NCBI GenBank assembly: GCA_001600495.1
Contig: BCKE01000021.1
Location: 339,779-403,778, forward strand
Source: Pilasporangium apinafurcum
Lineage: Eukaryota > Oomycota > Peronosporomycetes > Pythiales > Pythiaceae
Reading direction: 5' to 3'
Length of the DNA: 64,000 nucleotides
Shown here: in pieces, positions 3,048-64,000 of the stretch
Numbering within the stretch: position 1 is the first letter of the stretch
How the letters are laid out: every line of letters starts with the position of its first letter
Made by a program: the position numbers and the translations under genes
The notes under the pieces: model-generated
Told to the model about the DNA's origin: nothing
What the model saw: only the letters and a program-made list of their open reading frames with translations
Database searches by the model: none

Positions 3048-4228
3048 ATGTCCGACAGTGATCAGTCTGGTAGTAATGAATGCGGGCAGCGACGAAATCC
3101 GATCGACTGTTCTCCATCGACGTTTACGTTTGGAGTGCCAGCAATTTCGCACGCATTTAATCCACCAAACATTGGCATCAGCAAAACAGATAAAGGACCA
3201 CAAGCGCCAATAACAGAGGACGTGGATGCTGAAGGTATCATTACTTTTTCCTGCAAAACGTTTTCCAGCTACCGGTACCGCATCTTCACTCGAGATGGTA
3301 AATTGAGGATTTGGCTGGAAAATCGCAAGAGCAAACTGCAATGGTAATGCACCAGGTTATTTGCTGTTTATGGAGTAGTCTTGCTGATGGTGGACTAATC
3401 GTGCTCTTAGGCAAACAGAAGCGTTAGCTGAGGCGGATTTTGTTCCCAGTGACGGTGTCATCCCTCAGGCAACTTTTGCTGACTACGCAACAGTAAGTAT
3501 ATGCCGCTCTTGAAGTCTTGGTACTCACAATACTCAACCATCAATTGCATGCTTATATGTTTCAGTGCTTTCATGACTGTCTCAAAGCGCCATGTGACAC
3601 TAAGGATGGCGAGTTCCAACGTGATTTGACCGTACAAGCCAACAACGAGCTCGTACTGACGTTTGCCTTACAATTGCGCGTGTTTACACATATGTGGATG
3701 CCGAAGTACACGTTCACACTTCGGTCAGTGGAAGTTAAACCGCTGGACGTACTAAGTTCGCAACTCCGCGATCAGGACGAGGTAATCCAGAGTCTACGAA
3801 ATGAGGTTGCGTCCCTAAAGGAAGCCAACAGGAATGCAAAGAGGGAAGCTGTTTTTCTGAAGGTGGAATTAAAGGTGGCAGCGGCGCAGAACCAAGTTCT
3901 GGTTTGGCAAAAAGCATTTGGGGATTTTGGAAGCGGATTTCAGTTTGATGTAAAGCCAAATGGTAAAATTCTTTTCTTGCTTCCTGGGATTTATTGCGTA
4001 CAAGTGATGGTGCGGCACAACACCACCTCCAACACAGACACGTACGAGCTGCTGAAAAATGATATGAGCATCCGAAAATGCATCGACAGTAACCCCAATG
4101 GCTACTCTCAATCGTCAACTATGATGGAGATATTGGACATCGCCAAACACGACACCATCTCCGTTCGATACCTAGGCAACACGAACGCGGCAGTTGGGAG
4201 CTACTTGACGATTTTTCTGCTGAATTAG
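3048..4228 (+). CDS. Orphan-family protein with C1q/TNF-like C-terminal half, copy 1
   Basis: Exons 3048..3343, 3411..3492 and 3566..4228 give 346 aa, with all splice sites GT-AG. The N-terminal half holds a conserved module with YRYRIFTRDGKLRIWLENRK, then FVPSDGVIPQATFADYA. A segment with MWMPKYTFTLRSVEVKPLDVL follows, and then a short coiled coil (residues about 195-225). The last 120 residues look like a C1q/TNF-type jelly roll: ILFLLPGIYCVQVMVRHNTT is an aromatic-rich strand as in C1q domains, and VGSYLTIFLLN closes the fold. No signal peptide or membrane segment is visible. I do not recognise the full-length family. Two intact paralogues (8415..9551, 14264..15255) share the exon structure, including an 82-nt middle exon. 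Function is unknown; the C1q-like reading is inference from pattern. Confidence 0.72.
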
Positions 4229-4434
4229 TAAGAGTTGTCTGTTACGCGCTGTATGTACGAAAAGAACGTTGATGTCAATAGTTTAGCATGCTTGATGTGT
4301 AGATCAATCCATTTTCGCTTGCACTTAAATAAATATCATAGATTCCCATCAAGAATCACCAAATAGATGCACAACAAACACCAACTTCATTGTTTCACAC
4401 CACAGAATTACAAGCAAATAAACGTAACAGCCCC

Positions 4435-4745
4435 AGTCGCTTCCTACGGGAACAGGGCCATCTCCACAAAACTGCTTTCCAAGTACACTTTCCCATCACC
4501 CATGTACTTCACACGCAAATTATCGTTCGCTTTCATGCGAATCCTTTGGCTTTACCAAATGATTATGCTGTTGGAAAACAGACCATAATTTTAATTGTGC
4601 AATTGTGTGACTCATTTGTCGTTTTTTATATAACGCGATATCCGAGCGACAATTTGCGTGCCGAAGCGCAATACTGACGTGGTAAAGTCCATCCTCAAGC
4701 ATTTGGATCTCGCGAAACATCAAAATACATTTTGTCAAATGATTT
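4435..4745 (-). pseudogene. Relic of the C1q/TNF-like family (C-terminal part, frameshifted)
   Basis: On the minus strand, pieces in more than one frame match the family's C-terminal half: MYFDVSRDPN, then GLYHVSIALRH, then IRMKANDNLRVKYMGDGKVYLES followed by a stop. They line up in order with YFRVSTNGD, GWYMIYVVLV and MEANEVIDVFMSKGSATIQSY of the intact paralogue at 14264..15255. The reading frame is broken and no N-terminal exons are seen. It faces the intact copy at 3048..4228 tail to tail. Confidence 0.6.
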
Positions 4746-5015
4746 CTCGTCCTGTTTCTAAATCATGTAACCGAAGATTGGATCGATAGATCATTGAGCT
4801 ATGGATAGAAGCGTCGTGATATGCTTGGAGAAATTAAAGGGTGATGACACAAACCACATCGAAAGTTTTTATTGCAGCGCCCTCTTACCATAGAGAGAAC
4901 AGAAAAAAATCTCTTCAACTGTCTTGAAAATTTTTGAAATTCAATGCTATTCTTCTTATGCTGGCATCTTGAACAATCCACACATTCCTGCACTTCAAGT
5001 ATACTCAAGCTATTC

Positions 5016-6714
5016 TCATCCCCGTTCTACTTCAGTCGTTGCTTGGTCGTCATCCTCATCTTCCTCCTCTTTCGGTGTAGTACACGGCAAAAATTTTTCT
5101 GTGATCGTTCTCCAACCAGGAACACCAATGATCTTCGTACCAGCTTTGAGCTCTTCCACAAGTGTATAACATCGCGGATGGCCCTCGACTCCAAAATTCT
5201 TTCGAAACAGATCGGTGTAATCTTCTACACCACCCAAACACTCTTCTTTATATTGACACAGAATCAGTTCCATTTGAGACTTGGCTCCTTCTTCGGTGAA
5301 GCCGTTGACACGTGCTAATTCATAGGAAGCGATCGTCCATCGACGCATCCTGTCGTCGAATTTGTTGGGCATTTGCACGATCGGACGCAGACTGCCTGCT
5401 TCTGCTTGCTCTCCACTTCCACTCCCACTTGCGTTGCCGTCGTCTTCAGCTAACAGTGTCACAGTGGCGGCTGTGATTGTGTTAGCCTGCTTGCAGTTGG
5501 TGTACATATTGGTTAATGCACCGCTGAACTGATAAGTGTAGCTGTAATCACCCAAATCTTTAGCATCGACGTAATCGACAAATTTTGCAGGCAAGTCCTT
5601 GAAGAATGGGTAGAGCAATGTGTTGGGACTCGTTCGAACAGGAGTCCATACTTTTCTGTAGTCACGAATATTCATTGTGATAGTATCATCAGGAGTAAAA
5701 TTAGCTGTGCTTTGGCGCCTCGTACAATTGCTCCAGAATCGCAGGTCATTGCCTTTTTGATCAGCGGTCAAAAATACGCCTTCAGCATTAAGCTGACATT
5801 TGAGGTAGATGGTCTGCAGTAGATCAATAAAGCCGTGGTGTGTATAGAACAATGGATCTGCCGGTGATTGGAAGTAGGTCATGACTCCTCCAAGCGCGCT
5901 GTGAATCGTGTCTGCAGATCATCAAAAAAAGTAAGTGAATCCAGCAACAATAAAGAGTATCAGCATGCATGAACAAAAACTTACTATGTACGCCTCGTTC
6001 GACAGCTTTGCTGAACGTGTAATGGTCGTCGTAGCCAAAAACTTGTGAGTAGACTGAACCAAAATACGCCTCGCTAGGGTATGTGCGACTGGTGCCACGA
6101 TAACCCCGCATGATGCAATGCGAACAGCTCGTGCCATTGCCGCAGAAGTTGTAAAGAGGACCTTTATTTACACAGATGGTATCCCTTGTGTCAGTGATAG
6201 TGACGCCTTCAATATTTTGGCTGCTATCTTTCCCGGTGACAGTCCCACCAAAATCGGTGATGATCGATGAACAACCCTCAAGACTCCAACATCTTCCATT
6301 GGCATACTTGGCTGTGTTGGTCAAGTGGTCCCAGAACGGGATCGTCACACAAGCATACTCGCTTCCCATACTACGCAACATATTTTCATACCCAAGCAGA
6401 AACATGCGATGCCAATACAGGAACACACACGTGCCATGCGCCTCCAATTCTGAATACGTTTCGGTGTGGAGTTGTACGAATTTCTGATGGTAGCCGCGAC
6501 TGATAGCCTTGGCGAGAGCGGACAAGTACAATGCTTTCTCATCCGCGGAGTAGGCGTCCCATGATTTCCGGATACGTGGATCCGTGCATTGTGTACCGGA
6601 TTTTGTGGGGGTAGTTTGAGTGGTAGTCTGCGCGACGGCTTCTTCACTTGAAAGATGCAGAACAACGCCTAACGCGAGGCAAATGAACGAAAGCAAGGAA
6701 CGAAATTGGGTCAT
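5016..6714 (-). CDS. Secreted tyrosinase-like type-3 copper oxidase
   Basis: Exons 5985..6714 and 5016..5911 give 541 aa. The intron has a GTAAGT donor and a CTGCAG acceptor. Residues 1-29 are a signal peptide (SLLSFICLALGVVLHLSS). Copper site A is visible as H83, H93 and H102 in HGTCVFLYWHRMFLLGYE (H-x8-H spacing). Site B is H243 and H247 in HNTIHSALGG, completed across the splice, plus H268/H269 in SPADPLFYTHHGFIDLL. The C-terminal 200 residues include an acidic tail. Family role: oxidation of phenols or catechols to quinones, as in melanin formation or wall cross-linking. All copper ligands expected of an active enzyme are present. The substrate cannot be told from sequence. It is isolated from its neighbours by non-coding stretches on both sides. 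Confidence 0.9.
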
Positions 6715-7619
6715 TGTTTTCGCTTCTCCTTGTCTTACGCGCTACTGGATAACGTTGTAATGAAATGGACTGGTGTGTTGGCTAGTCGTGAGTTGACTAG
6801 GTGGTCAAGAAAATTTGAAAATAGCAATCATGATCGTCGCAGAGTCGGCTTTGCAAAAAATTATCGAAGAGCCACATAGTGCCATTTGATGTAGAAATGT
6901 AGAAATGCACAGCCGACGAGTGAGACCAGGCGCATGAAAATATTTGGTAAATTCGCATCTGCATGCGTCGCTTCACTAGCAAACGTGGGCCGTTCATCGC
7001 AGATCCTGGTCCGGAAAGGGTCGCTAATCTTAGATATGGATGTCAGTTCACCCACATCATGGCTTGGGAAAACCAGATGCACTCTTCATCTCTCTTTCAC
7101 GCACAACACTTTGGGATAGTATAACGGAGTCATAATGATATGCATTTGAGCACAACCAAGTTTCGAAATACATTTCTTATGGGATCTCAATCTCATGAGA
7201 TCATATGAGATACGAAAGTACCTCAGAGTTTACCAGCAAAAGCTAGCTAAGACTAGACAACCGCGGAGTATCTGTCTTCAATACTTGAACTCGATGATTT
7301 CAGACGAGTAGGTATTCATTCTTGAGAAAGATCTTTCTAGTGTGATGTTTGCTTTCCTTTCGCACCGATACTACCGCGTCCCGCTTTCTGGATAATCGCT
7401 TTGATTTTTCACATACTCGATCTCCTTTGGTATGCAGTGTCATGAATTCACATCTGTTCTTGAAAAGACGAATGTCGCTGGAAAGAGCTCATTGTGGAGA
7501 ATTGGAAACAAATTTCTGCTTCTATTGATAGGAAAAATGGGGGATAGAGGTGGAGTTGAATTTGTACATACATTCACAATTCGATACGACACACACTCTT
7601 TCTTGTCCTTCTTGAACTG
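6715..7619. other. Intergenic, nothing recognised
   Basis: Only short unsupported open frames are present. The first part is presumably the tyrosinase promoter. Confidence 0.5.
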
Positions 7620-8118
7620 GCAGCGCCGTCAGGTAACTTCTCATCCAGCTTTGCTACTTCCAGTGTACAGAACGTGAATCATCTCATCTTTCTCCACGCA
7701 AAACTATCGCTTCCAAATGCGAAACAGTGAGGAATAAAGGTTAAGTTGAGAATGGCGACATAATCGAGGGGTATAGGATACAAAGCGAAGTTGTATTTTA
7801 GTTTCCATACTGAACGCAGGAACAAGATGGTAAACATAAATACCAACAAGAACGCATCATCCTGAGTATGTATCAATCCACATGTACTAAGCCCGTCCTT
7901 CGCTGAATTGGTCAAGGTTTTTGGCGAAGTACTATGCATAGACAATTGAGGTAACGAACCGAGCTCTGTGTTGAGAATTCAGGATAATTGCATAGTGAAA
8001 GGAAGATGCAGACTATATGGATAGAAATGTGATGCATCCGTTTTTTAATCTCGGCACCTTCAATTGCTAATTCCCTTTCTAGAGCTTTGGGTAAAGCTGC
8101 GTATTCTTGTTGCTCCAT
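7620..8118 (-). pseudogene. Degraded copy of the C1q/TNF-like family
   Basis: Three segments on the minus strand match the intact neighbour at 8415..9551 in order. The first is an N-terminal piece (EYAALPKALERELAIEGAEIKK, like EALEVELALETVEIEK). The second is a middle piece (FLRSVWKLKYNFALYPIPLDYVAIL, like LPRSIWRPKYKFVLHPIALDRVDLL). The third is the 3' end: DNA at 7622-7735 parallels 8430-8545, which encodes the last strands. The coiled coil and most of the jelly roll are missing and the frames do not join. It looks like a truncated tandem duplicate of the adjacent gene. Confidence 0.7.
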
Positions 8119-8414: not shown

Positions 8415-9551
8415 CTATTGGACTCGTAGCGCCGTCAAGTAAGTCCCCCACCCAGCTTGACCGCTGCCGGTGTACAAAACGCGGATCATCTCGTCTTTCT
8501 CCACGCGCACCATTGCTTCCAAATGCGAAACAGTGGGATTACCACTATACGATAGCGCTTGACATGTCTGAATTGTATCAGTCATCTTCTGGAGTTCAAA
8601 CCCCATGCTAGGATTGGTGTTATTATGCTCGACCACAATGTGAATTTGGTACCAACCAGAGATAGTAAAGCGAATGGCGCCATGCAGATAAACATCAAAA
8701 TACTCAGAAGGCTGCCGGCTCTTCCAGACCATCACCTTGTTACGCTTCGCATCCTGTGCAATGAGAGCCTGTAGATACACTGGCGTGCTAGTTTGGCTTG
8801 CATTCAGCTTTGCAGGAGCCTGCTGTACTTGATTGTCCATTTTGCTTGGCATAGCGGGAAGCTGTTGAGTTGATGCGTGCTTTTTTTCCAACTGTTCACG
8901 TAGAGCGGTCATTTCTTGTTCTAACTCCTGGACTCGCGAGGTGAGCAAGTCGACACGATCGAGGGCGATCGGGTGGAGTACAAATTTGTATTTTGGACGC
9001 CAAATTGAACGCGGCAATGAAATCATTAGCGTAATCTCCAATATAAGAATATCGTTATCAGCGAGCGTCAATTCGCATGTATTCGATCTGCCTTCAGAGG
9101 CGTTAGCGAGAGCCTCAACAAAACACTATGCATGGATAACAGAGATTAAGGTAAGTTATTTTTTATATCCCAACAAGATCAGCCATATGACCTTACCGAA
9201 ACATAATCAGCCGTAGATGCATGAGGCATCACCGCGTCAGACGACACAAAATCTTCCTGGCGAAGCTTTTTCGATTCCCTAGCAGGCAACACGCAAAGAC
9301 ACTTAGTCTCGCTATCGCTTTCGAGCAAAACTGCATTCGTGGGTGAGCTCGATTTACCATTGTTTCTTCGTTGTGCGATTTTCGAACCAAATGCGCACTT
9401 GTTGAGCTTTCAAGACAATCGAGTAGCGAAAGGAAGATGCAGATTCGATTGATGGGAACGTGATACACCCTTCTTTTTCAATCTCCACAGTCTCCAATGC
9501 TAGTTCCACTTCTAGAGCTTCGGGAGGACAAGCGTTCTGTATTTGCTTCAT
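8415..9551 (-). CDS. Orphan-family protein with C1q/TNF-like C-terminal half, copy 2
   Basis: Exons 9358..9551, 9197..9278 and 8415..9125 give 328 aa. The middle exon is 82 nt, as in the other two intact copies, and intron phases agree. The N-terminal module contains FRYSIVLKAQQVRIWFENRTTKKQW and FVSSDAVMPHASTADYV. Then come SIWRPKYKFVLHPIALDRVDLL and a coiled coil with LTSRVQELEQEMTALREQLE. The C-terminal half has FTISGWYQIHIVVEHNNTN and ends in GWGTYLTALRV, like the closing strand of C1q domains. No signal peptide is evident. Function is unknown. It is adjacent to a truncated duplicate at 7620..8118. Confidence 0.72.
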
Positions 9552-27377: not shown

Positions 27378-28016
27378 TTAATAGCCGTGGTTTCGACGAC
27401 GAATACGGGCACGGCAGCCAGAAGGACGGCCTTCAGAAGCAGGAGCTTCCGTGGTAGGAGCCTCAGTGGTTGCCGGAGCTTCGGTCTCAGCCGTAGGCGC
27501 CTCGGTAGCTGGTGTTTCGGTTTCAGCAGCTGGGGCATCGGTGGCTGGGGCATCGGTAGCTGGAGCATCAGTCGCAGGAGCATCAGTAGCCGGAGCATCA
27601 GTCGCAGGAGATTCCGTCTCAGTAGCAGCAGAGGATGCGGTAGACGTGGCAGTAGAAGCAGCAGCGGAAGAAGAACTAGCACACACCGTCGCTTCAGTAG
27701 GAGTTGAAGCAAATGCCGTGACAGTGAAGTCTGGAGTGCCACCTTGCGACCATGTGCAGCATGGATCTCCAAACGCAGCACCATTGGTCATGGACGTTCC
27801 AGGGAAGGTCTGAGCACAGAATGCTGCCGTCCATGTGAGATCGGCTGCCTGAAAATCGGTAGCAAAGTCGGTGAACTGACTTGAATCGCTGTCTGGGTGA
27901 CCAAGTGTCATGGCGAATGATTCACCATTTGGCAAGTATGCCAAGTATGATTTCATGGCTTGAGCTGAGTGAACTGCGGCAAGCGCGAGGACGACGATGC
28001 AGGCAAATGACTTCAT
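27378..28016 (-). CDS. Secreted temptin-like protein A1 with Pro/Ala/Thr repeat tail
   Basis: An intronless 212-aa frame. Residues 1-20 are a signal peptide (MKSFACIVVLALAAVHSAQA). The domain at residues 21-115 has the temptin-type pattern YLAYLPNG, LGHPDSDSS, DFQAADLTWT and FGDPCCTW, but lacks the acidic DGDG loop. The tail is a mucin-like tract with seven or more repeats of ATDAP and relatives, probably O-glycosylated. It ends in a basic SGCRARIRRR segment without a GPI signal. Family knowledge: temptin is a secreted disulfide-bonded protein first known from Aplysia pheromones, and the role in microbes is unknown. It is head to head with A2 (29521..30057), and a 36-nt leader (28017..28052) is conserved between them. 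Confidence 0.8.
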   Translation of the reverse strand: MKSFACIVVLALAAVHSAQAMKSYLAYLPNGESFAMTLGHPDSDSSQFTDFATDFQAADLTWTAAFCAQTFPGTSMTNGAAFGDPCCTWSQGGTPDFTVTAFASTPTEATVCASSSSAAASTATSTASSAATETESPATDAPATDAPATDAPATDAPATDAPAAETETPATEAPTAETEAPATTEAPTTEAPASEGRPSGCRARIRRRNHGY

Positions 28017-28052
28017 TGTATGTGGATGGGTGTGAACCTGGTGCTTGTTTAT
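28017..28052 (-). promoter_or_regulatory. Conserved 5' leader shared by temptin-like A1 and A2
   Basis: Read on the minus strand, the 36 nt before the A1 start match 29485..29520 before A2 with two differences (start ATAAACAAGCACCAG, end CCCATCCACATACA). The flanks beyond it diverge quickly. Confidence 0.6.
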
Positions 28053-29484
28053 CGCTTTGCTTCACTGACAGAAAATAAGAGAATAAGACATGTTGTCGCG
28101 TTTCATTACAGGCGAAGCATTTGGTAGTACAGTCCATCTATTTGGAGGGTCGTACATGTTCCGGTCTCCTCACAGAATATGTAGCATAGAGCTGAAGACA
28201 GATGGTGGGATGAGGAGAAAGAGTGAACGAAGAAACGTTGAGCTGTTCGTGCTTCTGGATGTACAGCTTGGTTCTTAGAAGCAGATCCATTTGAGCCGAG
28301 TGCGAATCTGAGCGGTTGCGACTGCCTTTTAATATGCATATGTTTTGAAATAGTGTCACTGATAATTTGTGAGAAATGTCAAAAAATATTATTCACACTA
28401 TTTATGTTATTTCCGGTCAATTTTGGTGCCGAACCTATCTTTGGGTTCGAGTTCCGTGGGTCCAGTTGGTACCACCAAAATGCACCTCAACCAGTCGGCT
28501 GGCCGTAAGTTGTGGGATTTGGGAGGAGCTGCAGAAGCCAGCTGTTACGCGGCAAACAAAAGTAAATTACACAGACATTTACTCACACACGCAGAGGGTA
28601 GTGCATGTATAACCTGATAGACCAGCGCTAATTTCTCGAATCCAATTTACAAGCACATTTCTTTGTTATTGTTGTATGTGTGTTAGGAAACAGTCGATTA
28701 ATGATCGGTTGAGAATGATAACTTTGTCTTTTTTATTTTCATTGTGTTTGAACCACCAAAACACAGGAGGAGGGAAGGAGATTATCCCATAGCCTTGAGT
28801 GTAACAGATAAACTCCATTACCACCAGCATTTAAAATGTGTGTTCGCTTCTCTGGGATGGGATGTCGTCACTAACAATATGTACTCACATAACTTGACGT
28901 TTATGTGCCATCTGCTTCGGGTATGCCATCCGATATGTTCGCATGTATGGGATTTGCTATTTCCACAACCGTCAGGAAAGAAACTGCTCAAGTATAAACT
29001 ACCGTTTCTTCGTTGTCGATGGTAAAAAAAGCCTCAAAAATGGCTTTCTAACAGCGTTTGTGAAAAGAAGTTGGTTGTGCGATGGCTCCAGCATCCATCC
29101 AGTTGTTTGCCACGAATGCGCCAGCTGGTATCAAGTCACTAGGAAACGAACAGTTTTTTATTGGGCAGATGGGCAACTTTTTCCTTTTTCGCGTAGGTGT
29201 ATAGGCATAACATCTGAGTTGTGTGAGATAGGCAGTCAGTGTGGGGATCTTACAGTGAAACAGTCACCCGTTAGATTAGAAACCAGCTGGCGCCGCTTTT
29301 GATGCGCTGGGCTTTTACGCTACTTGTAATGTGATCGAAGAATAGAGAGCATGGCACCAGTTCATTTGTACTGATCAGGTGTACTTTGGTTCGGAGGGGA
29401 CATGGGCAACAGCCATCCTGGAAGACGGACCTCCGGAATCCATCACTTCCGAATTTGCCTCCTCCCCAGCAGTTCACCACAGCA
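28053..29484. other. Spacer between divergent temptin-like genes A1 and A2
   Basis: A 1.4-kb region with short open frames only. A small inverted repeat around 28436-28462 (CCGAACC...GGTTCG) superficially resembles a tRNA arm. No other feature was recognised. Confidence 0.4.
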
Positions 29485-29520
29485 ATAAACAAGCACCAGT
29501 TTCATACCCATCCACATACA

Positions 29521-30057
29521 ATGAAGTCATTTGCCTGCATCGTCGTCCTCGCGCTTGCCGCAGTTCACTCAGCTCAAGCCATGAAATCATACTTGGCATA
29601 CTTGCCAAATGGTGAATCATTCGCCATGACACTTGGTCACCCAGACAGCGATTCAAGTCAGTTCACCGACTTTGCTACCGATTTTCAGGCAGCCGATCTC
29701 ACATGGACGGCAGCATTCTGTGCTCAGACCTTCCCTGGAACGTCCATGACCAATGGTGCTGCGTTTGGAGATCCATGCTGCACATGGTCGCAAGGTGGCA
29801 CTCCAGACTTCACTGTCACGGCATTTGCCTCAACTCCCACTGAAGCGACGGTGTGCGCTAGCTCTTCCGCTGCTGCTTCTACTGCCACGTCTACCGCATC
29901 CTCTGCTGCTACTGAGACGGAAGCTCCTGCGACTGAAGCCCCTGCGACTGATGCTCCAGCTGCTACCACTGCACCAGCTGCTACCACTGCGCCGGCCACT
30001 AACGCTCCTGCTCCTGAAGCCCCTCCATCCGGCTGCCGTGCCCGCCTGCGCAAGTAA
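29521..30057 (+). CDS. Secreted temptin-like protein A2
   Basis: An intronless frame. The start at 29521 (MKSFACIVV) is chosen from the signal peptide; the longer in-frame extension is leader. The product is 178 aa. The signal peptide and domain match A1 at nearly every residue (GHPDSDSSQFTDFATDF, FPGTSMTNGAAFGDPCCTW), but the repeat tail is much shorter and reads ATDAPAATTAPAATTAPAT. It ends in SGCRARLRK. Tail length is thus the main difference between the two copies. It is tail to tail with B1 (30418..31080), 360 nt apart. A structural or wall-associated secreted role is inference. Confidence 0.8.
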   Translation: MKSFACIVVLALAAVHSAQAMKSYLAYLPNGESFAMTLGHPDSDSSQFTDFATDFQAADLTWTAAFCAQTFPGTSMTNGAAFGDPCCTWSQGGTPDFTVTAFASTPTEATVCASSSAAASTATSTASSAATETEAPATEAPATDAPAATTAPAATTAPATNAPAPEAPPSGCRARLRK

Positions 30058-30417: not shown

Positions 30418-31080
30418 CTATAGTTTGCGAGTGCGAGCGCGGCAACCAGAAGAAATAGACGTTGTGTTCGAAGTCGTGGCAGGAGCTGTAGTGGTGACCG
30501 TAGGTGTAGCAGTAGTGGTGGCTGGTGCTTCTGTTGTCTCACTTGTCGCAGAGGAGGCAGTGGATTCAGCGGTGGAGGTAGTTGTAGAAGTAGTGGTCGA
30601 CGCAGTAGAACCGGTGGATGAACTCGCCGTAGAAGCAGCGGTAGAGGCGGCAGTAGAAGCGGCGGTGGAGGTGGCAGCAGACGCAGCAGTAGAAGTAGTG
30701 GAGGTAGTGGCAGACGAAGACGCAGTCGAAGCAGACGCACTCGCACACACAGTGGCTTCGGTTGGTGTTGTTTCAAAAGCTGTGACCGTGAAATCAGGGG
30801 TTCCTCCTTCCGACCACGTGCAGCACGGGTCTCCAAATGCAGCTCCATTCGTCATCGTCGTCCCTGGGAACGTATCTTGGCAGAAATCGGTCGACCATGT
30901 CAACTCAGCTGCTTCGAATGCCGTGGCGAAATCGGTGAACTGACTAGAGTCGCTGTCTGGGTGACCGAGTGTCATGGAGAAGGACTCGCCGTTGGGGATG
31001 TATGCCAAGTATGCTTGCATGGCTTGGACAGAGTGCACAGCAGCAAGTGCGACGACAAGGATGGAAGCGATGGATTTCAT
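30418..31080 (-). CDS. Secreted temptin-like protein B1 (Ser/Thr/Ala-rich tail)
   Basis: An intronless 220-aa frame with a signal peptide (MKSIASILVVALAAVHSVQA). The temptin-like domain has YLAYIPNG, LGHPDSDSS, FEAAELTWS and FGDPCCTW. A tail of about 100 residues is almost all Ser, Thr and Ala (TSTAASAATSTAASTAAST), followed by SGCRARTRKL. There is no GPI signal. The predicted protein is identical to B2 (32703..33365), and the DNA also matched wherever I compared it. The flanks differ from the stop codon onward and from about 7 nt upstream of the start. It is head to head with B2. Confidence 0.8.
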   Translation of the reverse strand: MKSIASILVVALAAVHSVQAMQAYLAYIPNGESFSMTLGHPDSDSSQFTDFATAFEAAELTWSTDFCQDTFPGTTMTNGAAFGDPCCTWSEGGTPDFTVTAFETTPTEATVCASASASTASSSATTSTTSTAASAATSTAASTAASTAASTASSSTGSTASTTTSTTTSTAESTASSATSETTEAPATTTATPTVTTTAPATTSNTTSISSGCRARTRKL

Positions 31081-32702
31081 TTTCTGGCGGTCTATTTAGA
31101 ATTGCTGTGATGTGATATGAAGGCCGAGGCAAATTGGAGAATGAATGAAATATCTGTTATGCCAGCTTGCCTGGCTCACCACTGGAAGAAATCCCGTCTT
31201 CCCTGACGGGATAAAGCCTACTTTGCCATCATGAGCGATCGCACATGTAGGAAAGCGAAGGAATGAACATGACAGATGGTTGCGAACAACAACAAAAAAC
31301 AGTATCGTAGACCTCATTGCTGGCGAATAGGAGTCGATTCAATTCTATCCACTGTCCTACTATTTTCTGTCGTCGGTGCACAAACTGCAACTAATGTAGT
31401 ATTCTGGGGATCCAGACGGTTGGTTGACTGGATAGATAGCTGAGTTCCCGTTAATCTTTGATATATATTTCTATGATGAAGCTGATAATCGTCGCTTCCG
31501 GAGCTATCTCCATCATCTAATCGTGTTCATCCTACCCTATCTCGTCGATTTCGTGTTTTTTGGTTTTTTTCTTTTCGTGCAACATGATTCTAATACGGCA
31601 AATACTTAAGGTATGCACATATTTCAGATGCAATGGGAAGCATAGATGATTGATCGACAGATGAGATTGTGGAAGGTTTCTCCTTGTCAGAGGGAGAGGA
31701 TGGAATAAAGCATTTTGGTGGTGTCTTGTGCGCAATGCTTCTCCGCATTCAAACAAGATCAATGACTGCTGCACAAATAGTGAGTGCCCCGAAAATGGCT
31801 ACATTTGGATTATTAAGACCGCATTTTCATTTAAACCCGCATTTGCTGGAAAGTATCAATACAAGAGTAAATAGAGATTTCAGCTTCTTCGCCGAAGAAA
31901 AGAAAGTTAGCAACTCATATTCGCTCTAATATTGCTTGCCCCGTATTCGCTTTAATATTGCTCTTGAAATGCCTCGTTCATCAACGCACTTGCAGTGAAA
32001 GAATGTATTGTCAAAATGCAAGACTCCATACCGATATTTAATTTTTTGATAGCACCACCAGAACTAATATATTACCACCAGAACCGTGATTTTAATTATT
32101 ATATAGTATCGCTACCAACTGCATTAAAGCCGCAGTTCCTGAGGAGATTTTTGTCAGTTGTCCACCATGCGAGGTTGAGATGAACAAACCGTTATCATTC
32201 CATTGTACCGAAGAAAATGAAGCACATTTCTTGGACGATAATGTTCACAGAAGCTGCTACTGACTATTCTGTTTCTCTTTTTGATTTTGGTGGTTACTGA
32301 GAGCGGAAGATTGCAACTTTGGTGGGTACTGAGAGTGGAAGACTGCAGCAGTCCTGGGATGGTGGAGGGCGCCTCTCTCAGCACAAAATGAGCCATCTGG
32401 TATTCCGCATGTTGTCTGAGATATAACGTTCAATCTTTGCCAAACAACTCCAAGCAATAGGCCCAACAATGTTGCATCAGCGCACGAAAGTCTGTTCTGG
32501 CAGAGCCGTCTGTTATGACAGAACAATCAAATGGATCGCTTTGCCGCAAACAGTTGGCCTGGTTTTCGCAGTCGTGCTCGATGTTACTTTCCCACAGAAT
32601 ACAGCAACATCACCGAACAAGTAACTCACGACTCTTCTCATATTCTAACTTACCTCGGCGACCGCAACAACAACAAAACAACTCCAAACAGATCACCAGA
32701 AA
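31081..32702. other. Spacer between divergent identical genes B1 and B2
   Basis: A 1.6-kb non-coding spacer. It holds a two-copy tandem repeat at 32286-32350 and a short repeat near 31918-31962 (TATTCGCTNTAATATTGCT twice). No mobile-element coding sequence was seen. Confidence 0.5.
32286..32350. repeat. Two-copy ~32-nt tandem repeat
   Basis: GGTGGTTACTGAGAGCGGAA at about 32287 recurs as GGTGGGTACTGAGAGTGGAA at about 32319, with AGATTGCA/AGACTGCA following each. The two copies differ at a few positions. Confidence 0.75.
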
Positions 32703-33365
32703 ATGAAATCCATCGCTTCCATCCTTGTCGTCGCACTTGCTGCTGTGCACTCTGTCCAAGCCATGCAAGCATACTTGGCATACATCCCCAACGGCGAGTC
32801 CTTCTCCATGACACTCGGTCACCCAGACAGCGACTCTAGTCAGTTCACCGATTTCGCCACGGCATTCGAAGCAGCTGAGTTGACATGGTCGACCGATTTC
32901 TGCCAAGATACGTTCCCAGGGACGACGATGACGAATGGAGCTGCATTTGGAGACCCGTGCTGCACGTGGTCGGAAGGAGGAACCCCTGATTTCACGGTCA
33001 CAGCTTTTGAAACAACACCAACCGAAGCCACTGTGTGTGCGAGTGCGTCTGCTTCGACTGCGTCTTCGTCTGCCACTACCTCCACTACTTCTACTGCTGC
33101 GTCTGCTGCCACCTCCACCGCCGCTTCTACTGCCGCCTCTACCGCTGCTTCTACGGCGAGTTCATCCACCGGTTCTACTGCGTCGACCACTACTTCTACA
33201 ACTACCTCCACCGCTGAATCCACTGCCTCCTCTGCGACAAGTGAGACAACAGAAGCACCAGCCACCACTACTGCTACACCTACGGTCACCACTACAGCTC
33301 CTGCCACGACTTCGAACACAACGTCTATTTCTTCTGGTTGCCGCGCTCGCACTCGCAAACTCTAA
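32703..33365 (+). CDS. Secreted temptin-like protein B2, identical to B1
   Basis: An intronless 220-aa frame on the plus strand encoding the same protein as 30418..31080. The signal peptide, temptin-like domain and Ser/Thr/Ala tail are as described there. DNA compared over the start, signal and domain is the same, synonymous sites included. The last codon and stop differ (CTC TAA here, CTA TAG in B1), and neighbouring sequence is unrelated. It is probably kept identical by gene conversion between inverted copies, or was duplicated very recently with only the coding part retained. Confidence 0.8.
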   Translation: MKSIASILVVALAAVHSVQAMQAYLAYIPNGESFSMTLGHPDSDSSQFTDFATAFEAAELTWSTDFCQDTFPGTTMTNGAAFGDPCCTWSEGGTPDFTVTAFETTPTEATVCASASASTASSSATTSTTSTAASAATSTAASTAASTAASTASSSTGSTASTTTSTTTSTAESTASSATSETTEAPATTTATPTVTTTAPATTSNTTSISSGCRARTRKL

Positions 33366-42539: not shown

Positions 42540-43990
42540 TACCAAGGATGTAAAAGCGAGCTTTTGCCTGAATGCAAATTCTGTAGCGGCTGTGGGTTGC
42601 ATGCTGGCATGAAGAAGATCAGCGTGGCTGCATGATTACTTCGATGATATATATTTAGCAATGGCAGAAATGTTGTTAGCTTTGTCATAGGCAACTAACA
42701 TCAATCAATTAATGATTCCATATCCTAACTTGATTTGAATGACGACTATTGCGCGTACAAGCTTCTAAATGATGTTCACCACGGAGTCGACTGCACATAT
42801 CTCATGCAGCGGCAGCATCGAAGGTACCATGCTGTTGCCCGTGCGTGTTAAGATCTCCGCCCATTAGTAGTAACAATGTCTATTGATGTTGTATGGGATG
42901 CATTTGCAAAAAAAATAAATATGTGCACCCTTGACGCCCGAATGCCGAGTGTACCCACCCATGATATCTCTTTCATTGTTGAAGTAAAGTCATAAATCTA
43001 TCATCTCTGATGAAATAAGTTATGGACTGCCAGCGCATCTTACTCAAAGATCCATTTACTATTAACCGCATCTTTTTTGTCGCGCTTGTATCCGTAGACC
43101 ATCACCATCATCCTTCCTGTGTCCTTCTGCTCCCAAAGCAACAATTTGTGATATATCCAGCTATAATACACTCATTTAATGCATACATGGACGAAAGTTG
43201 TCAGCCTGAATGCAGCGTCAAGTGATGTTCTCTGCTGAATCTCGGCAGCATCCTGCTATTCGTCCGCCGCGTGTTTTGCAACAAGTCTATTCGAGTTTAA
43301 CCAACTGCAGACAATATTTTATCAATTTCATCGAGCTTCAGTTTGTTTCCTGCTGCTATCGATAGAAAAGTCATGCTGGTATGTGCTACCCATCTATAGG
43401 TGGTAAGATGCAGATCCCAACCATCCGCACCCAAAAAATCTTCCCTGTGTACCTATAGACTTAGCATACGCATGCGCGTGCAGTGTACATCTGATGCAAA
43501 AGGATCCTACTCTCTAGCCACTACGTTCATGAAAAGCGCATCGCAATCTGCTTTTCACTTGTCATGAAAAAGCAGTCCATTTGTTAGTTTCTTTATTCAT
43601 TGGTATGGGTAATATCAGTTGGTTCTTGGTCTCTTTTAAATAAACTTCTTCCATCTTGACATCCTTTTCCTTTCACCTGCTGGAGTTCCCAACTAAACAC
43701 GAAAATCGCGCTGTCGCCTAGACTTTAGCTGCCCAACTCGTAGCCAATTCTCCTGAGTAAAATAAAACTCCATTTGTATGGCTTATGAGATAGAAATGTC
43801 GATGCTTTATGCAACGCATGGGTCCAATGGGTTCATTCTTCTGACCAAACCTGATTCGTGGAACCCAAAGAACATTCCCAAAAAATAAATTAATCACCAC
43901 CGGAAATGCTCTGCACGTTCACGGTTTGAGTCCTTGGAAGAGTGAAGACACTTAACCAATCATCAGCAAAGCACCACGATTGTTCTTGTA
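42540..43990. other. Intergenic, nothing recognised
   Basis: About 1.45 kb between kinase loci with only short, unsupported frames. No repeat or RNA gene was recognised. Confidence 0.4.
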
Positions 43991-43999
43991 TCGCTGTGG

Positions 44000-46981
44000 A
44001 TGGATATGGCAGAAGCGTCCTCTAGTTATATGGACAGCCAATCGACAGATGTCTCCTGTAAAGGCGATGAAGATACACAAGCACTACATGAAGCCGTATC
44101 CAGAGAAAATATTGAAATGGTGCAGTTCTTGGTGCAGAACGGTATCAATGTCAACCGTCGCAATAATAAAGTATGGACAGCACTGCATAAAGCCGCCAGA
44201 TTCGGAAACGTCGAAATGGTGCAGTTTTTGGTGCAGAACAGTATCAATGTCAATCATCGCAATAAGAAAGGATGGACAGCACTACATGAGGCCGCCAGAT
44301 TCGGAAATGTTGAAATGGTACAATACTTGGTGCAGAACGGTGCCAAAGTCAATTATCGCAATAAGAAAGGGCGAACAGCACTTCATGAAGCTGTTAGATC
44401 TGGAAACATCGAAACGATGCAGTTCTTGGCACAAAACGGTGCCATAATCAGTTATCACAATAAGAAAGGACGGACAGCATTACATGAAGCCGCCAAGTCT
44501 GGAAACGCTGAAATGGTGCAGTTCTTATTGCAGAACGATGTCACAGTCAATGATCACGACAATAGTGGACGGACAGCACTACGGAATGCTGCCGACAAAG
44601 AGATGGTTAAGACGGAGAAACACTTGCTGAAAATTGACACACATGTGGACATGGATCCAAGTTGTGGCGATAGACGAAATTTCAAGCACAGATTGTCTGA
44701 TGCTCAAAGTGCTGAGGCTGTTTCTGACCCAATATCGAGGAAAAAATCTACTGCTGAGTGGTCTATTAACCAAAGCGACGTCAAGCTTGACGCAAACAAA
44801 GATGCTCTAGATGGTGGCTTCTTTGCAACCATCCATCTTGGTAAGTGGATGGGTGCACCTGTAGCAGTAAAGAAAATGACTTCAAGCAATCTCAGCTCGC
44901 TCTTCCATGAAGAGGTGAACACGTGGTTCCATCTCAACCATCCACATGTGGTGAGATTATACGGCGGCTGGGATGATGGTACACCATCGTTTGTATGTGA
45001 ACACCCAAGCAATGGGACACTTGCTTCATACTTGAAACAACACGACCACTATCGTGTCACATGGACGAAGCTGTATGAGGTAGCATTGGGTTTACAATAT
45101 TTGCACGAGCGTAACATTGTTCACGGCGACCTCAGATGTGGCAATGTTCTGGTTGGAGGTGATGGAGTTGCAAAACTCACTGGTTTTGGTTTCAGTTTTG
45201 ATAGCAAGCGAGTTGATACTTCACGCAACACACATGTGTTTAGTGGACTGAGATGGAAAGCTCCTGAATGCTTCGAAGGTAAACATCCATCGTTTGCTTC
45301 GGATGTTTATTCATTGGGAATGACTATGATCGAGGCTGTGAGTAGAAATGTCCCATGGGGAGAGAGAGTTGGTGCATCTTTCCTTCGTCGACGGATCCGA
45401 TCCAAAAAATTACCTGATCAACCTATGGTTTTCACTGATGATCAATGGGATTTGGTGAAACGCATGTGTTCGTTTGATCCCCAAGAGCGACTGACAATGT
45501 CTACAATAGTGCGTGAGCTGCAAAGTTTTGCCAACGAAGAAACAATGGATGGAATGAACGAAGTCCATGACCCGACATCGGAGAGTTGTATAAATGTGAA
45601 AGAATATCGCATCCGTGATCTTAACAATATTCCAATTGTGCTTGCGCTGGAAAGGATCGAGTCATTTTGCTCACAGTTCAAAACCGAGAACCTGATGAAT
45701 CATCGAGTATATACACGACTTGTGGACATCTACAATCAAATACAAGAGCTGAATCAATCTCCTGAGCTGACATTATTCACTAGCTACATCAAGATTCTTG
45801 TTCGCTCCTACAACGATCTGCAGGCAAGCACCTCGAAATCTCCACTGGCCAACTTTGTTGCAAGTCGACAAAGAACAGATAACTCCTTCATAATCCATGG
45901 TGAACTGGATCGACTGATGCAACGACTCGGTTTATCCAAAGCTGATTCAGTCCACGAGTGGATGGAGAGATGGAAGACAGATCAACAGCAGCAAATGAAG
46001 CGTTTTTCGGAACAACTCAACACACTACAACCTATGCTGCACAATTCGACCACGAATGAGCAAACTGAGGCTTTGACTTGTTTGCGCTTCGAACTGAGCA
46101 AGCACCGCACCAACTATGATACGATTGATTCGACTATCATTGAAGAAGCATGTACAAAGATTGCGACTGTGCATAATGTGTCTGTGGAAGACTGGTTTAT
46201 TCCTGCATATGAAGTGACTTTTGACGAGCTTGATGCGTTCAGTGAAGGATCATATGGGTCTGTGCATCACGGAACATGGTTGGGCTCTGATGTCGTTGTC
46301 AAGAAAGTATTTCAGCAAGATAAAAACTATCACGAGATTTTTGAGCGAGAAGTGGAGATTTGGTTTGGACTCTTCCATCCACATGTGGTCAGACTCTTTG
46401 GTGCATGTCATGTCGGCGATTACCCATTTTTTGTATGTGAATACGCTGGGAATGGGCAACTTGATTCATATTTGAAGAAACACCCCAAAGAAACATGGTC
46501 TAAGTTATATGAAGCAGCACTGGGACTACAGTACTTGCATTACCGCAACATAGTTCATGGTGACCTCAAGTGCAACAATATTTTGGTTGGAAGTGATGGT
46601 CTGTCGAAACTGACAGATTTTGGGTTAAGTTTGGATAGCAAGAGTGAAAAGAAGCACGACACCCATGGTCCAGTTGGTGCAGTTCGATGGAAAGCGCCAG
46701 AGTGCTTGAAGGGTGCGGAACCAACATTTGAGTCGGATGTTTATTCGTTTGGGATGTGTATTGTGGAAGCTGTGAGTGGAGAGTTTCCATGGGGAAATGC
46801 ACTTGCTGATGTTGTTGTGAAGTTTCAGGTCAAGAAAGGGAGGCTACTTAAGCAGCCTGTAGGTTTTAAAGATGATCAGTGGCAGTTGGTGACGCGGATG
46901 TGCAACTTTGATCCCAGTAAGCGACTACAGATCAACAAAGTGATCCAGGAGCTTAGAAAATTCGCCGAAGTTGCCGCTTAA
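44000..46981 (+). CDS. Ankyrin - pseudokinase - helical - kinase protein (tandem TKL)
   Basis: A 993-aa intronless frame. Residues about 25-200 hold five to six ankyrin repeats of 33 residues (GRTALHEAAKSGNAEMVQFL). Kinase domain 1 (about 260-510) keeps VAVKK and HGDLRCGN, but its glycine loop is degenerate (DGGFFATI) and DFG is GFG (KLTGFGFSF, near residue 391). It is therefore probably a pseudokinase. Residues about 525-720 are helical (LVRSYNDLQAS, DRLMQRLGLS), recalling the N-terminal half of the 39699..41105 protein. Kinase domain 2 (about 735-990) has every key element: SEGSYGSV, VVVKK, HGDLKCNN, TDFGLSL, APECL. It is predicted active on Ser/Thr. The pseudokinase-before-kinase order is like that of JAKs and suggests regulation in cis, which is inference. 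Confidence 0.85.
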   Translation: MDMAEASSSYMDSQSTDVSCKGDEDTQALHEAVSRENIEMVQFLVQNGINVNRRNNKVWTALHKAARFGNVEMVQFLVQNSINVNHRNKKGWTALHEAARFGNVEMVQYLVQNGAKVNYRNKKGRTALHEAVRSGNIETMQFLAQNGAIISYHNKKGRTALHEAAKSGNAEMVQFLLQNDVTVNDHDNSGRTALRNAADKEMVKTEKHLLKIDTHVDMDPSCGDRRNFKHRLSDAQSAEAVSDPISRKKSTAEWSINQSDVKLDANKDALDGGFFATIHLGKWMGAPVAVKKMTSSNLSSLFHEEVNTWFHLNHPHVVRLYGGWDDGTPSFVCEHPSNGTLASYLKQHDHYRVTWTKLYEVALGLQYLHERNIVHGDLRCGNVLVGGDGVAKLTGFGFSFDSKRVDTSRNTHVFSGLRWKAPECFEGKHPSFASDVYSLGMTMIEAVSRNVPWGERVGASFLRRRIRSKKLPDQPMVFTDDQWDLVKRMCSFDPQERLTMSTIVRELQSFANEETMDGMNEVHDPTSESCINVKEYRIRDLNNIPIVLALERIESFCSQFKTENLMNHRVYTRLVDIYNQIQELNQSPELTLFTSYIKILVRSYNDLQASTSKSPLANFVASRQRTDNSFIIHGELDRLMQRLGLSKADSVHEWMERWKTDQQQQMKRFSEQLNTLQPMLHNSTTNEQTEALTCLRFELSKHRTNYDTIDSTIIEEACTKIATVHNVSVEDWFIPAYEVTFDELDAFSEGSYGSVHHGTWLGSDVVVKKVFQQDKNYHEIFEREVEIWFGLFHPHVVRLFGACHVGDYPFFVCEYAGNGQLDSYLKKHPKETWSKLYEAALGLQYLHYRNIVHGDLKCNNILVGSDGLSKLTDFGLSLDSKSEKKHDTHGPVGAVRWKAPECLKGAEPTFESDVYSFGMCIVEAVSGEFPWGNALADVVVKFQVKKGRLLKQPVGFKDDQWQLVTRMCNFDPSKRLQINKVIQELRKFAEVAA

Positions 46982-59997: not shown

Positions 59998-60222
59998 CTT
60001 CATCACCCTGTACAACTCTCATGGCATGACGTTAAGCATGAGAGAATCAACTACGCGATGAAGCACCAGAAAGTCTTTGACTATTCTCACTGCAATTTCG
60101 TCCTTGATAGAGATATCAACGCTGTTAGAAATATATTTCTCAAGAATGAACGCTTACTTATCGAGTCCAGATGTCGGAGATGGCCACTCCATGATTGTCA
60201 AGTCTTAATTAGCTTTTGCTAG
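59998..60222 (+). pseudogene. Fanzor/TnpB-like relic (C-terminal zinc ribbon and RuvC-III)
   Basis: A 74-codon frame reads ...HQKVFDYSHCNFVLDRDINAVRNIFLKNERLL and stops at 60220. The DRDINAVRNIF segment is the RuvC-III motif of TnpB/Fanzor nucleases (usual form DRDxNGARNI). The second CxxC of the zinc ribbon has lost its first cysteine (DYSHC). The frame is closed upstream by a stop at 59995. It is a decayed 3' end, unlike the intact motif at 63666..64000. Confidence 0.6.
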
Positions 60223-60306
60223 TCAAGTCAGACCCGAACAAAAAAGAGGAGACTCTCCCTGAGTTACCGGTATCTGTTGGTTTCTCATATGATCTCTTCG
60301 AGGTAG

Positions 60307-61723: not shown

Positions 61724-63340
61724 TCATGAATCTGAAGAAGTGATAATAGTCAACTCCGGACCGATCGACAAAAACTCCCAATGCAACACGATAGAGAGCA
61801 CGTCCATAGCGTTTCGGCGCGCATCAAAATTAGTCGTATAGTCGGTCCGTCCGGTCCATTGAATTTCGGAGTACTCCTCACCTGTCACCGGATTCTTGAC
61901 ATCCAAGAGTTCGATTGCAAAAGTGAGTCCAACCCAATGAAGCTGCCTCCCTAATTCATCGTGTCTCATCGAAGGCAATTCATCTTCAAAAGTGACAGGC
62001 GTGATGGTGTGTGTACCAATCCAATACCCTGAAGCAGGCAGCTTGGGACCAGATGGGTCCGATCGATTAACTACCTCAGCGTTGGTCTCAATACGGAAGC
62101 GAAGAAAAGCAGCTCTAAATTGGTTCGGCCGGTCGGGTGCTGAATTCTGACGACCAGCCACGTAGGCATCGTTGTTGATGTACTGTAACACATCCAAGCG
62201 GTGGGTGTCTTTGTCGTACCGCTGAAAATGCCTAAGCCGCTTGTCGGATTCAAAAGTTGTGTCCATGATCTTGTGGAGGGGCAGCTTCTTGAATCGTTTG
62301 GTGCACAGAAATTCCAATTGACTTCCCATAATTCGACGGCGGACGTCCCACCCCAGTACCTGTAAATGATCTCGCAACATCTCAGATGTCGCATTCTCCA
62401 ATTGGTTTTGGATCTTGCGGATTTCACGTGTGTTTTCCAGGATTTTCTCCTTCATAAATTCTTCAGTCACGGGATGGAAGCGGAAAATCCTGGCGGCCTC
62501 TTCTTTTTCAAGTTCACGTGGTTGTGCGGCCGGATCTGTGTCATTGGAGAGCTTGTCGATGTACGGAGTCGAATCCACGACGCGGCTTAGCTCCCTTTTC
62601 CATACACCAAGGTCCTGTAGTGCTGCTTTCAGGTACATTTTCTCCGCACCCAGCCGTTTGACAAGCTCCATTGGATCTTCTCCATAGGCCCCTCGACCTA
62701 CTATTCCACTTGGCTTCTGATGCCATGTTGAGCCAACACGCTGTACCAGCGCATTGTACTCCTTCTCCAACTGTGCGACGGTTTGTTTCATGCGCTCGAG
62801 GTTCTCTCTCTCTTTTTGTCGAGTGCGGCGCATTAATTCCCGATTTTTGGCGCGCCGCATTTCCGCTGGCTCTGCAGCTGATCTATAGGAGACCTTTCTG
62901 GGGTAGCGTGATACTTTTCCTTGTGATGAGGGAACTGGAGAATGTGACAAAGACTGCAACTCACCATCATGACACTCTAACGCTCTACCGATCCCTGGGA
63001 TGGTCTCACCAACCAATGGCCGTGACGACAATAATGCGGCATCCGCATCGGCTGGACTCATTGGGACGTATTGCTCCAGCAATTCCTCCCATTCTTCACA
63101 TTGGTTTTGCGTTGTTTCATATCCATGCACCATCATGTCCATCTCTTGGGTTTCCACCGTCTTCGCCACATGGAGCTCTGATTCTGTGCTGGTAGTGCCG
63201 ACACTCGCTATCAGCGACCTTTCGAACCAGTTTGCAGCACCATCGAACGCACCGACGTCTTCCTCTTGTAGTTGAACGGATCCAACGCCATCGTCGCTTG
63301 CCATGCTTGTCATTTTCTTGCCGCTTGAAGTATAGCACAT
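61724..63340 (-). CDS. bZIP-like transcription factor with long START-like C-terminal region
   Basis: A 538-aa frame. The first Met at 63340 or one at 63313 (MTSMASDDG) could start it. Residues about 150-205 form a bZIP: basic region MRRAKNRELMRRTRQKEREN, then heptads (MKQTVAQLEKEYNALVQRV). The canonical Asn-x-x-Ala-Ala-x-x-Cys/Ser-Arg is changed to Asn-Arg-Glu-Leu-Met-Arg-Arg-Thr-Arg. Residues about 290-538 form one long domain with mixed strands (YWIGTHTITPVTFEDE, WVGLTFAIELLD, EIQWTGRTDYTT), reminiscent of the START-like region of oomycete M96/bZIP-related proteins. Non-canonical bZIPs are known as an oomycete trait. Probable nuclear regulator, perhaps ligand-sensing; the latter is speculation. 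Confidence 0.75.
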   Translation of the reverse strand: MCYTSSGKKMTSMASDDGVGSVQLQEEDVGAFDGAANWFERSLIASVGTTSTESELHVAKTVETQEMDMMVHGYETTQNQCEEWEELLEQYVPMSPADADAALLSSRPLVGETIPGIGRALECHDGELQSLSHSPVPSSQGKVSRYPRKVSYRSAAEPAEMRRAKNRELMRRTRQKERENLERMKQTVAQLEKEYNALVQRVGSTWHQKPSGIVGRGAYGEDPMELVKRLGAEKMYLKAALQDLGVWKRELSRVVDSTPYIDKLSNDTDPAAQPRELEKEEAARIFRFHPVTEEFMKEKILENTREIRKIQNQLENATSEMLRDHLQVLGWDVRRRIMGSQLEFLCTKRFKKLPLHKIMDTTFESDKRLRHFQRYDKDTHRLDVLQYINNDAYVAGRQNSAPDRPNQFRAAFLRFRIETNAEVVNRSDPSGPKLPASGYWIGTHTITPVTFEDELPSMRHDELGRQLHWVGLTFAIELLDVKNPVTGEEYSEIQWTGRTDYTTNFDARRNAMDVLSIVLHWEFLSIGPELTIITSSDS

Positions 63341-63665
63341 GCGACAGAAAAAAATTACAAAAACGGCTATTTCCTAATCACAACTCCCTTATTCGATATT
63401 TAATATTGAATATAAATTGTATATTGATTTTATTACTTCAAATCTCATATATTTATAAACATTAAAGTAAATTATAAATTATCATTTATCAAATCAAAAA
63501 GAATTGCATGAATTACGAAGCATGCAGTAACCAATACGCCTAAGGAGATCGTCATAGATGCCAAAGATACCAAAGTACCGAACACCTACTCCCTCTTGGG
63601 CCTATAACACCAGTAAAGCTGGCAGGACTCCTCGAAGAANGCGACTTCGATATTTTTTTGCTTTA
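63341..63665. other. AT-rich intergenic stretch with an undetermined base
   Basis: 63370-63520 is strongly AT-rich. One undetermined base (n) lies at about 63640. Confidence 0.5.
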
Positions 63666-64000
63666 TCAGGCGAAGTGTTCGCGCAAGATAGATCCGCNGA
63701 TATTCTTGTGGAAGATGTTCTTTGCGGCACTTACATCACGATCGTGATCAAACGTACACTTCTTGCATTTGAATGTCTCGCTTTCACTGAGTCTCTTGTT
63801 GATCTTCCCGCAGCGTGAGCACGAGATGGACGTGTATCTCTCACAGACTTCTTCCAAGTGTCCGCCTATGCGCTCCATCTTCTGTGTTAGGAGCATTCTG
63901 AACTGATAATGTGACTGAGCCAACATCATCCGCGTCGTCGGACTTGAAATCTTGCGCTTGCGTCCACGTACTGTCAGCATCTCCTCTGGCTCCCATAAGT
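63666..64000 (-). CDS. Fanzor/TnpB-like RNA-guided nuclease, C-terminal part (5' end beyond window)
   Basis: The frame is open from the right edge to a stop at 63666, so at least 111 codons are seen. It shows RKRKISSPTTRMMLAQSHYQFRM (a stretch usual before the ribbon), then a zinc ribbon with both CxxC pairs intact (CSRC and CKKC). RuvC-III follows as DHDRDVSAAKNIFHKN. This matches OrfB zinc-ribbon proteins of the TnpB/Fanzor class. Eukaryotic members (Fanzor) are RNA-guided DNA endonucleases carried by transposons. The first two RuvC motifs are off the window. An undetermined base (n) sits at about 63698, just after the motif. Whether the protein is intact cannot be told here. Confidence 0.75.
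   Translation of the reverse strand, partial: LWEPEEMLTVRGRKRKISSPTTRMMLAQSHYQFRMLLTQKMERIGGHLEEVCERYTSISCSRCGKINKRLSESETFKCKKCTFDHDRDVSAAKNIFHKNIXGSILREHFA

Follow-up and report, generated by a model that had tools for sequence, protein, structure and literature searches.

The right edge of the window (the whole 64-kb stretch of DNA that was analysed) probably carries the 3' end of a mobile element encoding a Fanzor2-type nuclease. Fanzors, the RNA-guided nucleases of eukaryotes, matter both for practical use and for the study of evolution; they are DNA-cutting enzymes of a known type that are spread by mobile DNA. The frame at the edge, here called copy A, is a real C-terminal TnpB/Fanzor fragment cut by the window edge, and its C-terminal nuclease part, comprising the end of the long helix, the displaced RuvC-II glutamate (E-alt), the zinc ribbon and the RuvC-III aspartate, is intact. 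Two further loci in the window, relics B and C, share a 3' tail with each other and, on the evidence set out below, probably with copy A. The coordinates of all features are collected in Table 1.

Table 1. Features of copy A and of relics B and C, in window coordinates
Feature	Position	Strand	Basis
Copy A, C-terminal 110 codons and stop of a gene for a probable Fanzor2-type RNA-guided nuclease	63666-63998	-	PF07282; 9b0l by sequence and fold; tree group
Displaced RuvC-II glutamate (E-alt) codon, E53	63840-63842	-	Six residues between E53 and C60
C4 zinc ribbon CSRC...CKKC (C60, C63, C78, C81)	63756-63821	-	4/4 Cys invariant, 22 aligned sequences
RuvC-III aspartate codon, D88, in DRDVSAAKNIF	63735-63737	-	Invariant, 22 aligned sequences
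Candidate right end and 3' part of guide (omega) RNA, copy A	63545-63629	-	Relic-defined blocks in order; alignment
Candidate guide site if the scaffold ends at 63545	63525-63544	-	Position only
Relic B, decayed Fanzor C-terminus, 74-aa frame	59998-60222	+	PF07282 6e-5, under its cut-off
Relic B 3' tail (hairpin 60208-60223; end TCTCATATGATCTC 60283-60296)	60201-60296	+	Tail comparison
Relic C, final codons (about a dozen) of a related frame, with its 3' tail	~7197-7339	-	DNA match to relic B

Identity of the right-edge frame

Copy A is an open frame of 110 aa that ends in a TGA stop (63666-63668) and stays open as far as the window end, beyond which its start would lie. It matches PF07282 (Cas12f1-like_TNB) over model positions 1-60 of 60, with an E-value of 8.3e-20 and a score of 71.2 bits (cut-off 26.3). 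The window was also scanned in six frames, taking open stretches of at least 20 aa and two profiles that did not contain the right-edge fragment. The fragment ranked first (E-alt profile 1.4e-26, all-reference profile 1.3e-24), about twenty orders of magnitude ahead of the second, relic B at 59998-60219 (2.9e-6 and 9.4e-6), and the third stood at 0.42 and 0.0099. With this ranking and these E-values, the match of the fragment lies far beyond chance.

The TnpB/Fanzor motif [TS][TS]xx-C4-x(5,50)-RD, given in the available text of PMC3627910 together with a distant upstream D that would here fall outside the window, is present in the fragment as TSIS followed by C60, C63, C78 and C81, five residues, and RD. 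The fragment keeps the E, the four Cys, the RD and 14 other positions that are invariant in a 7-sequence alignment. An earlier note on this DNA had proposed a Fanzor/TnpB-like gene with an intact zinc ribbon and a RuvC-III motif entering from the right edge. Both motifs are in frame as it described, and the identity that it gave is upheld by the PF07282 match and the predicted fold and gains support from the E-alt glutamate, which had escaped it. The ambiguous base that it had flagged for resolution, at 63698, is the first base of an NGC codon, which reads S, R, G or C and can never be a stop, so that the frame stays open. The only other N in the window (63640) lies outside the frame.

Probably Fanzor2 rather than Fanzor1

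Among solved structures, the best match to the fragment by sequence is the mimivirus Fanzor2 (9b0l, 1e-8). A structure prediction covering fragment residues 1-99, with an input of 18 aligned sequences (mean pLDDT 81.8, pTM 0.50), also gave 9b0l, titled mimivirus Fanzor2, as the best of 241 solved-structure matches (E 3.1e-4). The sole Fanzor1 entry in the best 50 of these 241 was 9cf1, at rank 49 with an E-value of 2.1; this is a Parasitella Fanzor, named Fanzor1 in the available text of the Cell paper. When the predicted fold was searched against viral models, the top rows were giant-virus transposases. Viruses that Bao and Jurka record with Fanzor2 families (mimivirus, Cafeteria roenbergensis virus, Chlorella viruses and Feldmannia virus) took ranks 8, 9, 20, 22 and 27, and two that they record with Fanzor1 families took ranks 43 and 49, a ranking that gives a lean and no proof because some viruses could carry further types.

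Over the 110 aa compared, the fragment is thus most likely of Fanzor2 rather than Fanzor1 type, as judged by sequence, by predicted fold and by a tree without Fanzor1 references. That copy A is instead a Fanzor1 seems improbable, given a Fanzor2 as nearest solved structure by both routes and the lower ranks of the two Fanzor1 viruses. Such an assignment would nevertheless fit the oomycetes listed by Bao and Jurka, in which Fanzor1 families exceed Fanzor2 families; E-alt is common to both types according to the available text of PMC10711439, and the tree contained only references other than Fanzor1.

Placement relative to the E-alt/DPG group

In the available text of PMC10711439 the Fanzor fingerprint consists of DPG in RuvC-I together with a glutamate displaced to a position six residues ahead of the zinc ribbon, and an E-alt/D-hydrophobic-G clade is described as well. 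E-alt typifies Fanzors and the bacterial proteins closest to them. E53 of the fragment lies six residues before C60, which is the E-alt position of this fingerprint; the canonical RuvC-II glutamate position falls in the first residues of the fragment, at the window edge, where the alignment is unsure. DPG is found in 7 of our 10 E-alt references, the other three (L079, L084 and L086) having a RuvC-I of the D-I/L-L-G type, as against 3 of the 80 references without E-alt. E-alt therefore makes DPG likely in copy A and does not prove it. The RuvC-I of copy A, where DPG would stand, lies past the right edge of the window, as do REC and WED.

Tree input consisted of 122 matching frames from 118 loci, with the [TS][TS]xxCxxC pattern required and near-identical frames collapsed. 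In a first tree of 91 C-terminal domains, including the fragment and mimivirus L79, the fragment lay within the E-alt/DPG group, beside mimivirus L79 (support 100/87 and 100/86). A second tree of 33 rows, for which 22 of the 80 non-E-alt rows were drawn at random, again placed it within this group (95/85 and 95/84). Constraining the 33-row tree to group the 7 E-alt/DPG references without the fragment lowered the likelihood by 2.6, with a p-AU of 0.195; this constraint was not rejected, and the fragment may lie inside these references or just beside them. The fragment branch is long (1.24).

The fragment scores 87.4 bits against the profile of the 7 E-alt/DPG references and 77.9 against that of the 80 others, and mimivirus L79 has the same pattern (85.8 and 78.4 bits). 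This lean is moderate, since one of the 80 non-E-alt references reaches 84.7 bits with the E-alt/DPG model, near the value for the fragment. Taken together, these comparisons place the fragment with the E-alt/DPG group, inside or just beside its 7 references. Relatives were sought by a profile scan run from alignment A3, alignment A1 being too variable. Single-protein scans confirmed no close relatives in viral contigs and gave three bacterial loci in genome contigs.

In the viral-contig loci L076, L080 and L083 the TnpB has GIDPG in RuvC-I yet alanine at the E-alt position, so the two halves of the Fanzor fingerprint are separable in these loci. L079, L084 and L086, also on viral contigs, combine E-alt with their D-I/L-L-G RuvC-I, like the E-alt/D-hydrophobic-G clade in the available text of PMC10711439. 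On viral contig L070 the E-alt match is followed, some 1 kb downstream, by a second TnpB of the non-E-alt type (about 4040-5230).

Two relics with a shared 3' tail

Relic B, whose frame matches the end of the PF07282 domain, is 40% identical to copy A over 35 aa (E 1.3e-5 to 4.3e-5), and in a gapless extension of this match three of its four zinc-ribbon Cys are replaced by D, H and Y. Relic C matches relic B at 69% DNA identity over 117 bp (E 3e-7), and its tail contains hairpins at 7232-7247 and 7206-7225 and the end TCTCATATGATCTC at 7197-7210. The two relics share a 3' tail past the coding part: their homology passes the coding part, reaches this identical 14-mer and then stops. The first tail block scores 44 between them, and 0 of 2000 shuffles were as high. 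We infer that relics B and C represent earlier copies of related elements, largely lost by now except for their 3' ends.

Fanzor2 elements are IS607-type, with a serine recombinase and without TIR or TSD; the left end of the copy A element and any transposase would lie outside the window. A search of the window for inverted copies of the 14-nt end, allowing up to 3 mismatches, found 8 against 7.97 expected, and thus none beyond chance. Near relic C there are two direct repeats, one just upstream (7612-7729 / 8418-8535, about 118 bp, 80% identical) and another at 7969-8091 / 9400-9524.

The tail of copy A and a candidate guide RNA

Past its stop, copy A has a first hairpin at 63609-63623, a GGTACTTTGGTATC hairpin at 63566-63579 and a terminal GATCTC at 63545-63550, and the tails of all three copies finish in GATCTC. 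The first hairpin is found in 3 of 3 copies, as GCCAG-CTTTA-CTGGT in copy A, ATTAGC-TTTT-GCTAGT in relic B (60208-60223) and GCTAGC-TTTT-GCTGGT in relic C (7232-7247); several stem positions differ among them and the pairing is kept. Copies A and C have a second hairpin element in common, GGTACTTT[G/C]GTATC, and share the 15-mer GGTACTTTSGTATCT, a pattern picked after seeing the sequences.

The tail blocks were defined from relics B and C only, after inspection of copy A. The 130 nt past the stop of copy A match both blocks in order, which 7 of 4000 random window stretches equalled or bettered; the best of these outscores the copy A tail (74 vs 70), and either block alone often turns up by chance (383 and 101 of 4000). 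In the pairwise comparisons, shuffling the dinucleotides of copy A gave the real score in 152 of 2000 cases for A-B and in 32 of 2000 for A-C; the random stretches used there excluded the surroundings of the three copies, so that their number was a little under 2000. A three-copy tail profile recovers exactly its three source copies, as it must by construction, and nothing more to E 10. The relics-only nhmmer profile, searched up to E 50, returned both relics and five weak places (E 4-33), with copy A absent, and because of this the tail link for copy A is only moderate. Default MAFFT fails to align hairpin 1 of copy A with the relic hairpins, and folding a default-type alignment to a consensus gives a poor result (-4.05 kcal/mol, covariation term +0.12); the tail alignment that we used (MAFFT localpair, low gap cost) was chosen after inspecting the sequences.

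Taken on sequence similarity, the tail of copy A is on balance probably homologous to those of the relics. The alternative, that the likeness is due to chance and that a guide RNA, if there is one, lies elsewhere, is less likely, though by no means remote. It would account for the miss by the relics-only profile and for the modest pairwise scores, and is opposed by the two blocks, which keep both their order and their register relative to the stop codon, at the rarity given above, and by the A-C 15-mer, which has no other exact occurrence in the window.

TnpB and Fanzor guide RNAs derive from the right end of the element (available text of PMC10432273 and PMC10711439), and the tail is therefore where the end of the scaffold would be expected, with the guide running from 63544 downwards. 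A candidate guide RNA at 63545-63665, perhaps extending into the 3' end of the frame, is plausible by analogy with these systems. It had earlier been suggested that a guide RNA might lie in the AT-rich stretch 63360-63660; this placement is not supported. The counterpart of the relic tails is 63545-63629, which has ordinary GC (0.446 for 63545-63665), and the AT-rich part proper (63360-63540, GC 0.238) falls outside it, separating the copy A tail from the bZIP frame and lying immediately 5' of the latter. Viral contigs contained 0 stretches that matched a DNA pattern of the tail, and the Rfam search (gathering thresholds) and the tRNA search each gave 0 matches.

Possible mechanism and state of the element

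In the reading that we favour, homology would run past the stop into a short hairpin tail ending in GATCTC, as it does in the relics and, with moderate support, in copy A. This tail would mark the element's right end and would supply, once transcribed, the 3' part of the guide-RNA scaffold, and the sequence just beyond 63545 would serve as the guide. By analogy with the family, from which transcription, processing and cutting are all taken, the protein-RNA complex may cut guide-matching DNA next to the target motif of the element, and such cutting would favour its retention and spread. Retention and spread by guided cutting have been proposed for TnpB and Fanzor generally.

The window shows only the last 110 aa of the protein and gives no support to the live copy that the earlier note had envisaged. 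It is quite possible, if not quite an even chance, that copy A is a dead 3' remnant, inactive like the relics and just younger. Two relics in the same window indicate that copies decay here with their 3' ends kept, and in Chlamydomonas, Fanzor families frequently show 5' truncation but keep the 3' end intact (available text of PMC3627910). Against this, the frame of copy A is open for 110 of 110 codons and keeps its invariant positions, unlike relic B with its lost Cys. Should the gene instead be intact past the edge, which we consider unlikely though far from negligible, it would be a live stramenopile Fanzor2 with a compact guide RNA and a tail that is recognisable even in relics with no coding part. 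Solo right ends could then map old insertions and former guides, and the DNA addressed by the present guide would be that immediately 5' of the bZIP gene.

Comparison with known systems

Copy A shares its zinc ribbon, RuvC-III RD and E-alt glutamate with the mimivirus Fanzor2 (TnpB-like L79, 9b0l), to which it is 38% identical over the C-terminus. Unlike that protein, it lies in a eukaryotic contig among cellular genes, is known here from the C-terminus alone and has no transposase visible in the window. Cyanobacterial pro-Fanzor TnpB (available text of PMC10711439) and the E-alt/DPG proteins L004, L005, L066 and L067 have E-alt, the same zinc-ribbon spacing and 33-35% identity to the fragment, but come from bacterial, phage or viral-contig contexts. 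The Fanzor1 proteins SpuFz1, GtFz1 and PpFz1 have a TnpB-type C-terminus with E-alt according to the descriptions available; structurally, Fanzor1 is the poor match noted above for 9cf1.

The protein type is already known, and copy A adds a member: Bao and Jurka (2013, Table 1) give Fanzor2 families from Phytophthora sojae, P. capsici and P. ramorum. These families represent the same type of protein in apparently similar hosts, oomycete-like in gene content, a comparison at the level of the published table. Among the titles and abstracts listed for Fanzor and TnpB in oomycetes there was no paper on copy A. If complete, the gene would be a candidate Fanzor2 from a lineage represented in the available literature by a table entry. 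Three copies in a 64-kb window, two of them 3' ends, may allow the right end and guide-RNA scaffold to be located by comparison alone.

Genomic neighbourhood

Copy A is encoded in a eukaryotic contig, as judged by the domains of its neighbours: KH repeats, ankyrin-kinase fusions, tyrosinase, Temptin, steroid dehydrogenase, VTT and a bZIP-like frame. Such a set of genes is suggestive of oomycetes. The bZIP match falls below its Pfam cut-off, and the first three ATGs of this frame are at 63340, 63313 and 63304. A recent bacterial TnpB, whether contamination or a fresh transfer, is very improbable. Bacterial TnpB C-termini do match the fragment widely (at E 0.01, 213 records from phages and 2114 from plasmids), but the best of these are all less than 60% identical, the fragment carries the E-alt glutamate, its GC (0.491) is like that of the bZIP frame (0.502) and the neighbours on the same contig are eukaryotic.

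Elsewhere in the window, an inverted repeat (30419-31113 / 32670-33364, 98.7% over 695 bp) spans the Temptin_C frames, and a second inverted pair (27519-28067 / 29470-30021) is 92.6% identical. The tyrosinase domain (region 5016-6741, minus strand) is divided between two overlapping frames, 5016-5918 and 5824-6741, which points to an intron or a frameshift in this gene. A 1011-aa frame at 43946-46981 on the plus strand has ankyrin repeats and two kinase matches, and contains a 99-bp tandem repeat at 44114-44582.
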